From Caldifarciminota bacterium (GTDB lineage Bacteria > Hydrothermota > Tepidihabitantia > Tepidihabitantales > DTDR01), in assembly GCA_025060715.1 (NCBI GenBank), contig JANXBG010000006.1:1867-59420 (forward strand): a stretch of 57,554 nucleotides of DNA. Reading direction: 5' to 3'. The notes beneath the pieces were generated by a model. That model was not told the DNA's origin and made no database searches. It saw only the letters and a program-made list of their open reading frames with translations. Of the stretch, positions 1,203-41,664 are shown piece after piece (the stretch's first letter is position 1; each line of letters starts with the position of its first letter). The translations under genes and the position numbers were made by a program.

Positions 1203-2081
1203 ATGAGAAAGTTGTTTTCAATTTTTATTATTTTATTTTTATTAATTTCTTTTAAAGCCTTTTCTCAACAAAGAGTAGTAATTGCTGAAAAGTTTACTGG
1301 CACTTGGTGCCCTTATTGTCCCGGTGCCCAAATGGGATTAAGGAATTTAAAACAAGAGGTTGGTGATTTAGTAGCGATAATTGCTTATCATATAAATGAC
1401 CCTTTTCAAGTTTCAGAAGCGGTATCAAGACGAAATTATTATGGTGTTACAGGATATCCAACAGTGATTTTTGATGGTGTTTTAAGAAGAGTCGGTGGTT
1501 ATCCAAATCAACCAGTTCCTTATCGCGACCTTTTTGACCAAAGAATTATTGTTGCTCCTTTAGTAGATATCGGCTTAAGGATTCTTAGTTATAATCGGAA
1601 TACTGGAATGGGAAGAGTAGAAGTTATTATCACTAATCTAACCAGTTTTGTAGAAGGTTATCTAAGGTGTGCATTAGTTGGCAAGGAAACCCTTTATTAT
1701 TGGCAAAATCAAACCCATCTTTATGATATCTGTTTAGATATGTTTCCTAACGACGCCAGTGGTCAATATATTCGTTTAGAAATGGGACAATCTTTTTGTG
1801 ATACCTATGATTTTACTATTTCTTATGGTTGGCGAGAAAGAGAATGTTCAATCGTTGCCTTTTTCCAAGATGATAATACCAAAGAAATTTATAATGGAAA
1901 AGAGGTTTTAATTCCTTTAGTAGCAATTAAAGAAAGGAAAAATAACAATTTGAAAACTAATGTAAAGGTGAAGGAAATTTTTGATATTGAAGGTAGAAAA
2001 GTTAAAAGTTTTGATTCCCATGGTATTTACTTCTTAAAATATGATAACAACTCTTTAAAGAAAATTGTTATTACGAAGTGA
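1203..2081 (+). CDS. Secreted Omp28-like thioredoxin-fold protein with T9SS-like tail
   Basis: 292 residues. An N-terminal signal peptide (about 1-22, ending KAFSQ) is followed at once by a thioredoxin-type start: RVVIAEKFTGTWCPYC (about 24-39), with a CPYC redox motif, then VAIIAYHI and the cis-Pro strand GYPTVIFDG. This order matches the Omp28-related outer-membrane proteins of Bacteroidota-like genomes. A middle beta-rich region ends in a short T9SS-like sorting tail (EIFDIEGRKVKSF...GIYFLKY...KIVITK), so the protein is probably exported through the Sec system and then the outer membrane. The CPYC suggests a disulfide-active surface protein; the substrate is unknown. The SD GGGAG lies just before the ATG. 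The stop TGA overlaps the GTG start of the next gene, so the two are translationally coupled. Confidence 0.85.
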   Translation: MRKLFSIFIILFLLISFKAFSQQRVVIAEKFTGTWCPYCPGAQMGLRNLKQEVGDLVAIIAYHINDPFQVSEAVSRRNYYGVTGYPTVIFDGVLRRVGGYPNQPVPYRDLFDQRIIVAPLVDIGLRILSYNRNTGMGRVEVIITNLTSFVEGYLRCALVGKETLYYWQNQTHLYDICLDMFPNDASGQYIRLEMGQSFCDTYDFTISYGWRERECSIVAFFQDDNTKEIYNGKEVLIPLVAIKERKNNNLKTNVKVKEIFDIEGRKVKSFDSHGIYFLKYDNNSLKKIVITK

Positions 2082-2791
2082 GAAGCAAAATATTTTTAAT
2101 AACTCTTCTTCTTATTTTTTTAGCCTGTTCCGAAGCACCAAAAAGAGAGTTTCAAGGGAATCGATTAGTTCTTTGTGAATTTTTTACCTTTGCTCGTTGT
2201 GTTTATTGTCCCTATGCTGAAGCAGCCTTAGAAAGTTTGAGAAAGGAATTTAAAGATTCAATAATTATTATTGCCTATCACCGAAGATTATTGGGAGATA
2301 CTTTAAGTCCGGAAGATGTTGAGGCGCGGAGAAGTTTTTATTATGAAGAAGGTGGCGAGCCGGTTGTATTTTTTAATGGTAGTGGTCCAATTAGAACCGA
2401 AGACCCATCTTTAAATTATTCTACCTATAAAAACGAGATACAAAAGGAAAGAAGTAAGAAATTGAAAGTATTAGTAAATTTAGATAACAATAGTGACACA
2501 ATAAAAATTGTTCTCTTTGCTTGTGATACTTTACTTTCCCGAGATTTAAGGCTTCTTGGTCTTATTACTTTTGATTCAATCTTTTTTAAACAAGCAGGAG
2601 CAAGGGAATCGGTTTATCATAATGTCTATCGGGGGTTTCTTGTTAATCAAAAAATTGAATTAAATTATGGCGACTCTTTAATAATTCCAATCTATTTTTC
2701 TAATCAACAAAATAAAACAAAATTTATTGTTTTCTTACAGGATTTTAATAATAAAGAGATATTAAATAGTAATTTTTATCATTGGAGGTGA
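2078..2791 (+). CDS. Omp28-like thioredoxin-fold lipoprotein
   Basis: 237 residues starting at GTG, whose last bases form the upstream stop (GTGA overlap). The N-terminus is a lipoprotein signal with lipobox FLAC (Cys about 17), so it is probably membrane-anchored. RLVLCEFFTFARCVYC aligns without gaps to the redox start of the preceding gene, giving a CVYC motif, followed by IIIIAYHR and EPVVFFNG strands. There is no T9SS tail, unlike its neighbour. The pair looks like an ancient tandem duplication: one copy sorted by T9SS and one lipid-anchored, perhaps acting as donor and acceptor in thiol exchange. That partnership is inference. The stop TGA is three bases before the next ATG. Confidence 0.8.
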   Translation: MRSKIFLITLLLIFLACSEAPKREFQGNRLVLCEFFTFARCVYCPYAEAALESLRKEFKDSIIIIAYHRRLLGDTLSPEDVEARRSFYYEEGGEPVVFFNGSGPIRTEDPSLNYSTYKNEIQKERSKKLKVLVNLDNNSDTIKIVLFACDTLLSRDLRLLGLITFDSIFFKQAGARESVYHNVYRGFLVNQKIELNYGDSLIIPIYFSNQQNKTKFIVFLQDFNNKEILNSNFYHWR

Positions 2792-40592: not shown

Positions 40593-41606
40593 TTATAAAT
40601 TGATAATTTTCCCTTGGTATTCTTTTCCTGAGAAGTTAAGTTTATAGAAATAGATTCCTTTTGTTTTTAGATTGAGAGAAATCTCTTTTTCTTTGCCAAC
40701 AAAGAAATCTTTAATAGTTTGAATAATCTTTCCATCGGTGGCGAAAATTTGTAAGGTAAATTCGCCTTTCTTTTCACCTACTAATTTGATCTTTGTTTTT
40801 TCCATATTAGAGATAGTAGTAATTTTTGGTGAAGGGTTGGTAATTTCATTTACGGCAGTCATTTCCCTAATTTTAATCATTCCTCCTTGATAAATTTCTT
40901 TTGTTGAATCGGGTTGAAGATTATCACTTTGTAAAAAGGCGATTATTTTACATTTGTCAGAATTCCAGTCAGAAGCAATTGTAAAATTTCGGCTACGAGA
41001 AATTGAGCCCCTTGCTGGCACAGTAATAACTTCACCATTAGGGTCAGGCAAATAATCCCTTGCCACATGATTATGCCAGAGATCACCATTTGGTGCTGAA
41101 TAATATATACTATCTTCAACAATAACAAATTGGAGCCGACCGGTTATCGGATTACTTGATTCATTGATAATATTCAATTCAATATATCCGTTTCGGTTAT
41201 TTTGGTTATACCAGCCTGAAAATTCAAAATTTAAATCAGAAGTAATTCCCATTCGCTGTTCTAAAAGATATTGCCAGTTATAATAATTTGTTCCACCTTT
41301 TTTACCATCATACCACATATAAGGAGTTACATAATACCACTGGCCATTATAATAATAGGGAGGTGGATACATACTCATTTTATTTCTCGCTTCGGCACAA
41401 TAAAGAGGATAACCTGAACGAATATGCATTTCAATTATTGCAATTCTTGTTGGGTATAACGAACTTATTTGGTCCAGCACACTGCTGGCTGTGGCACAGG
41501 AACCTCAAGTTTCTTGGTAGGCTTCTTCGGCAACAACTACTCTTTCGGCTGAATAAAGGGAGGAAATAAAAATTAAAGTTAAAAATAAAGGAAGATATTT
41601 TTTCAT
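40593..41606 (-). CDS. Omp28-like secreted thioredoxin-fold protein, probable selenoprotein (UGSC), T9SS-like tail
   Basis: 337 residues if the TGA at codon 34 (41507-41505) is read through. GGAGG (41616-41612) and ATG 41606 start a signal peptide (MKKYLPLFLTLIFISSLYSA), then RVVVAEEAYQET-TGA-GSC. This aligns gap-free with RVVIAEKFTGTWCPYC of the gene at 1203 and RLVLCEFFTFARCVYC of the gene at 2078; the TGA falls on the first redox cysteine and C37 on the second. IAIIEMHI and VTPYMWYDG match later strands. A perfect hairpin sits 22 nt after the TGA. C-terminal T9SS-like tail (GIYFYKLNFSGKEYQGKIINL). If TGA is a stop, only the part from GTG 41480 could be translated, without signal or active site and without a Shine-Dalgarno. 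Alternatives are a nonsense mutation or a base error. Sec readout is my inference. Confidence 0.7.
41474..41488 (-). promoter_or_regulatory. Candidate bacterial SECIS hairpin
   Basis: On the transcript CCAGCA (41488-41483), loop GUG (41482-41480), UGCUGG (41479-41474), a perfect 6-bp stem. GGU directly after the UGA (41504-41502) can pair with ACC (41473-41471) as a lower stem. The loop begins 22 nt after the UGA and has G first and a GU, which fits what is known of bacterial SECIS elements (loop 16-37 nt from UGA). About 62 percent G+C over 41471-41507 in an A/T-rich gene. Confidence 0.6.
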
Positions 41607-41636
41607 AATAACCTCCAATTTAAATACATCATTAAT

Positions 41637-41664
41637 ATTATAATAATATTTCTTATAAAATCAA
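41637..41664 (-). promoter_or_regulatory. Promoter of the candidate selenoprotein gene
   Basis: Minus strand TTGATT (41664-41659), 16 bp, TATAAT (41642-41637). Predicted leader about 23 nt with GGAGG. An intact promoter and SD argue against a long-dead gene. Confidence 0.7.

Follow-up and report, generated by a model that had tools for sequence, protein, structure and literature searches.

We consider here a stretch of DNA of 57,554 nucleotides (the window), in which a gene of 337 codons on the (−) strand, at 41606-40593, contains a single in-frame TGA. The gene starts with an ATG behind the Shine-Dalgarno sequence GGAGG (41612..41616, (−)), and its codon 34, the TGA at 41507-41505 (−), stands in the context AEEAYQET-U-GSCATASS, so that the UGA, if read as Sec, takes position 1 of a UGSC redox motif. 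A scan of the window found no other TGA that links an upstream frame having a start codon and spanning 25 codons or more with a downstream frame of 200 codons or more. The first-pass annotation of the window had described one in-frame TGA in an otherwise open gene and had taken TGA as a normal stop elsewhere, and both descriptions hold: the 337-codon translation has no other TGA, and TGA terminates 9 of the 44 ORFs in the window, which argues that UGA is not simply reassigned here. The default ORF call gives a fragment of 295 aa starting from the GTG at 41480, which lies within the hairpin that follows the UGA. Of the intact promoter boxes and Shine-Dalgarno sequence claimed earlier, the latter stands as GGAGG, while the boxes TTGATT-16-TATAAT (41637..41664, (−)) are only consensus-like, with a match at 10 of 12 positions, and promoter-like sites show no enrichment over shuffles. 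Downstream of the gene, a terminator-like hairpin at 40568-40545 (−) suggests a single-gene transcript, and the gene appears to stand alone in the window; by eye, a urocanase-type gene adjoins it and an EF-G-type gene is divergent.

The hairpin following the UGA, CCAGCA-GUG-UGCUGG (41474..41488, (−)), has a 6-bp stem and a GUG loop, with the stem starting 16 nt and the loop 22 nt after the UGA. In the published model of the bacterial SECIS, the stem has 4-16 bp, the loop has 3-9 nt and carries a G within its first two nucleotides, which G or U often follows, the spacing between UGA and loop is 16-37 nt and the minimum free energy is at most −7.5 kcal/mol (PMC13188914). The window hairpin agrees with this model in stem, loop, G and spacing; its energy is −7.1 kcal/mol for the bare 15 nt, just short of the limit, −8.4 kcal/mol for 25 nt and −11.2 kcal/mol for 44 nt. 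It is noted that the folding energy of the single sequence is unremarkable (z-score of +0.4 for 71 nt) and is not taken here as evidence for a SECIS, and that an Rfam search gave no match. As judged from the sequences, the support beyond chance for the hairpin is comparative, arising from the codon identity with the sister species and from covariation, not from energy.

Between the window gene and that of the sister species, all nine hairpin codons are identical, and synonymous changes are present in 0 of 8 codons in the range 39-46 versus 84 of the 266 retained degenerate codons gene-wide, although a change-free run of the length of the hairpin codons is not unique within the gene. Because codon conservation could mimic pairing, a control by synonymous recoding of the window gene was added, in which all six pairs survived in only 1.7% of the recodings. 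Because the RNAalifold consensus of the homologue alignment is weak, with four pairs only, the six-pair structure was counted directly in 76 homologous genes, which align gap-free from the UGA and have the stem start always 16 nt after it. In these genes standard pairs fill 93.0% of the pair cells versus 85.6% after shuffling (0/500), both sides are changed in 60 pair cells, and the slid-structure controls pair in at most 39%. Moreover, 69 of the 76 genes retain all five outer pairs versus a mean of 3.6 and a maximum of 10 under synonymous recoding, with loop position 1 being G in 73 and the next position being U or G in 75. The SECIS-like hairpin proposed from the window sequence is thus borne out as a covarying element with fixed spacing that fits the published model in its loop and its distance from the UGA. 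Note also that the 16-nt CCAG hairpin is not matched by the longer homologous forms of about 590-650 aa (L098, L099, L101-L105, L109, L110), which each have one UPYC/UTYC-type TGA and likely use a different SECIS register.

The genome from which the window comes, a fragmented draft of 1.6 Mb in 86 contigs that is 92% complete, has the tRNA-Sec with anticodon TCA, SelA (576 bits), full-length SelB (371 bits) and SelD (317 bits), so that all four components on which the first-pass annotation had made its reading depend most are present. The selD gene (L016:1483-2515, contig C41) has itself an in-frame TGA (CPG-U-ASK) followed by a strong hairpin (z −2.2), and SelD is a probable selenoprotein.

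The homologues were searched in 147 genomes of the phylum, nearly all of them MAGs, with record titles naming candidate division WOR-3 or Stahlbacteria. In a genome of the same genus (G001) the ortholog has 83% protein identity and the TGA in place. The genus has a third genome, G002, in which selA is absent and the closest homologue carries Cys in the UGA column, as do both paralogues in the window. These are an Omp28-like gene at 1203..2081 (+) with the motif CPYC and an Omp28-lipoprotein-like gene at 2078..2791 (+) with CVYC, both assigned by profile matches, and they place the TGA on the first Cys of the redox pair, just as the first-pass annotation had aligned it. An in-frame TGA is present in 79 of the best 80 matches in the phylum, the one exception being a match from residue 53 onward with the N-terminus missing; the column holds Cys or TGA. 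Of the TGA-bearing homologous frames, 97 were read in detail, and in every one the TGA occupies the first position of UxxC; the loci were picked for having a TGA and not for its place, so that the count is no measure of TGA frequency. The TGA-bearing homologues co-occur with selA in the 147 genomes: 50 genomes have the homologue with full selA and 5 without it, versus 9 with and 83 without selA among the others (p = 4.5e-24, kinship not being corrected). One of the nine genomes assigned selA only, G016, also has a TGA homologue in a search with the NF045500 profile. The five TGA-bearing genomes without full selA comprise G073, G075 and G101, which are 53-82% complete, and G078 and G131, which have selA fragments only. 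In G078, a single contig with several TGA genes, a C-terminal selA fragment lies some 1 kb away from one of these genes (L062, G078:C1:1641800-1653700), and selA is possibly frameshifted or broken there.

The conservation of the TGA, the covarying hairpin, the machinery and the co-occurrence with selA lead us to conclude that the gene at 41606-40593 almost certainly encodes a selenoprotein, and the same comparisons support the Sec insertion put forward in the first-pass annotation. By contrast, it might be supposed that the TGA is a nonsense change in a pseudogene or a miscalled TGC, TGT or TGG, as could be suggested by the 295-aa fragment of the default gene finder and by the fragmented state of the draft. 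This is evidently inconsistent with the presence of the same TGA in the sister species and throughout the best phylum matches, which are independent genomes, with the constraint on the downstream frame seen in its synonymous changes and protein identity, and with the Sec machinery in the genome; we give this explanation a negligible probability. Equally improbable is that UGA codes for some other amino acid, as in a Trp or Gly code variant, or is passed by generic readthrough. An otherwise open frame around the UGA would be expected in that case too, but the use of TGA as a stop in the window, the Cys in the homologue column, the covarying hairpin after the UGA and the co-occurrence with selA all argue against it.

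The predicted protein starts with a signal peptide (MKKYLPLFLTLIFISSLYSA, 41547..41606, (−)), which was assigned by inspection and forms an N-terminal helix in the AlphaFold2 model. This model, which was made with the sequences of relatives and has a pLDDT of 91.9, gives the order of an N-terminal helix, a thioredoxin-like domain (41247..41546, (−)), an Omp28 beta domain and a C-terminal beta domain, with residue 34, the Sec, opening the first helix of the thioredoxin-like domain. The best match among solved structures is 2axo, with a TM-score of 0.64 by the target and 14% identity; 2axo is a member of DUF1223 (PF06764). The thioredoxin fold with UxxC and the likeness to Omp28 that had been read from the sequence are supported by the model with its 2axo match and by the PF11551 match (40920..41330, (−); 57.1 bits versus a cut-off of 34.9), respectively. 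The T9SS-like tail noted earlier is recovered as a T9SS type A C-terminal sorting domain (TIGR04183; 40602..40799, (−)) with 26.4 bits versus a cut-off of 23, PF18962 giving 25.3 bits, slightly below the Pfam cut-off of 27. Among 40 relatives, 37 match the TIGR04183 tail (E of 0.001 or better) and 10 match PF06764.

Based on these domains, the window protein is likely exported via the type IX secretion system. This is consistent with the SprA in its own genome, which has 214 bits and passes its cut-off, and with a weak match of the window gene at 6806-3321 to the T9SS sortase model. It could be argued instead that the protein stays in the periplasm or as a lipoprotein-like envelope protein, with the C-terminal beta domain being purely structural, as PF18962 is under its cut-off, the full-length PorU-like protein in the genome has 293 bits, below the curated cut-off of 420, and the C-terminal beta sandwiches in some relatives resemble FlgD-Ig domains. 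Against this stand the TIGR04183 match over its cut-off, shared by most relatives, together with SprA and the sortase-like gene, and we regard such a retention in the envelope as unlikely. A search of the available literature for type IX-secreted selenoprotein cargo yielded no description, which is not proof of absence.

For the activity, the UxxC at the start of the helix together with the conserved Pro95 is the arrangement of disulfide exchange, and the protein is likely a surface or periplasmic thiol/selenol-disulfide oxidoreductase. Sec raises the peroxidatic reactivity in many thioredoxin-fold selenoproteins, and neighbours in the relatives match AhpC-TSA/Redoxin, so it is conceivable that the main targets of the redox site are peroxides or other small oxidants and not protein disulfides. 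We consider this improbable, though less so than a pseudogene or a recoded UGA, with the disulfide-exchange layout and the lack of any peroxiredoxin or GPx signature in the window protein among the Pfam and NCBIfam profiles and in the fold model speaking against it. With disulfide exchange retained as the preferred activity, the pathway can be described as follows. SelB with Sec-tRNA-Sec would bind the hairpin whose stem begins 16 nt past the UGA, as its conserved parts imply, and Sec34 would be inserted with no termination. The signal peptide would then export the protein, which is predicted to fold into the thioredoxin domain with the UGSC redox pair and the Omp28 beta domain. The type IX secretion system would then probably sort the protein to the cell surface, and there or in the periplasm it would most likely act as a thiol/selenol-disulfide oxidoreductase or reductant. 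We hold this explanation as a whole, from the SECIS-driven Sec34 to the oxidoreductase with probable T9SS sorting, to be very probable.

It is noted that an Omp28-like selenoprotein, which the first-pass annotation had regarded as new, is already known in kind. GOS_C was described in 2008, with 74 Sec sequences, as a selenoprotein that has a thioredoxin fold, a UxxC motif and no known function (PMC2398784). According to a review of 2026 it corresponds to NF045500 (PMC13188914), whose NCBIfam name is 'Omp28-related selenoprotein'. The window protein shares with GOS_C/NF045500 the Sec at UxxC, the thioredoxin-like fold, the relation to Omp28 and the downstream SECIS, and matches NF045500 with 53.7 bits (E of 2e-14). 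A wholly new family was therefore rejected, the two belonging to the same superfamily. By contrast, the curated cut-off of NF045500 is 200, which none of the 147 WOR-3 genomes reaches (best 97.8 bits), and the alignment covers profile positions 37-272 of 377, the C-terminal part being unshared. Judged by sequence comparison, the window protein is thus one that works like GOS_C yet falls outside NF045500 by the curated criterion, and the new part is a divergent, unannotated branch in WOR-3 that is lineage-expanded, often multi-copy and mostly T9SS-tailed. With the Omp28 family (PF11551; NF033782; P. gingivalis Omp28, 2r2c) it shares the PF11551 domain and a weak 2r2c profile match, but it differs from the outer membrane lipoproteins of NF033782, with 60.3 bits versus a cut-off of 150 and a Sec in the redox motif. 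DUF1223 offers the best structural match, but the identity is low and the window protein is without a PF06764 match. With the envelope thioredoxins of the TlpA/ResA type it shares the exported thioredoxin fold and the helix-capping CxxC-type motif, whereas it adds the Omp28 beta domain and the T9SS-type tail and has Sec for Cys.

In this uncultured phylum standard annotation misses or truncates many such genes, since it takes their Sec codon for a stop and the NCBIfam model is drawn too narrowly. The WOR-3 gene set provides a SECIS that covaries cleanly at a fixed spacing, and it points to redox chemistry that depends on selenium and takes place outside the cytoplasm, possibly with selenoproteins secreted by the type IX system.

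In some relatives the Omp28-type Sec genes are in tandem, and in some a second, shorter Omp28-like lipoprotein gene with UGFC or UPFC has downstream of it the genes for a TlpA-like redoxin (WCKxC) and for an outer-membrane-type protein. G001 carries such a UPFC lipoprotein cluster, with the hairpin GGCUGC-GGA-GCAGUC of −7.4 kcal/mol, and the window gene at 2078-2791 is homologous to this shorter selenolipoprotein, but with Cys (CVYC) replacing Sec. The TlpA-like redoxin is a possible electron partner of the UxFC lipoproteins, and the lipoprotein-redoxin clusters support extracytoplasmic redox work, with no substrate singled out. It may even be, although we put this forward tentatively and with more doubt than belief, that there is a phylum-wide family of T9SS-secreted surface Sec redox proteins, multi-copy within the genomes of some WOR-3 lineages, and that they constitute with the UxFC selenolipoprotein and the TlpA-like redoxin an undescribed extracytoplasmic selenol-based electron pathway.

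Finally, we note some further loci. When 84,980 species were scanned by pattern, 45 stretches matched, mostly of the Omp28-type Sec family in WOR-3; the scan also gave family-free stretches, e.g., in Hafnia, Lentilactobacillus, Terribacillus and Chitinophaga, in line with the about 7 expected by chance from our own estimate. The homologues L123, L136 and L149, having UxxC and the SECIS pattern, come from records titled Delongbacteria, TA06 and Desulfuromonas sp. SDB, not WOR-3. Loci of the shorter UPFC/UGFC selenolipoprotein are found at L164:2213-2971 (−), L120:1713-2486, L132:657-1430 and L135:2639-3391 and in L144.
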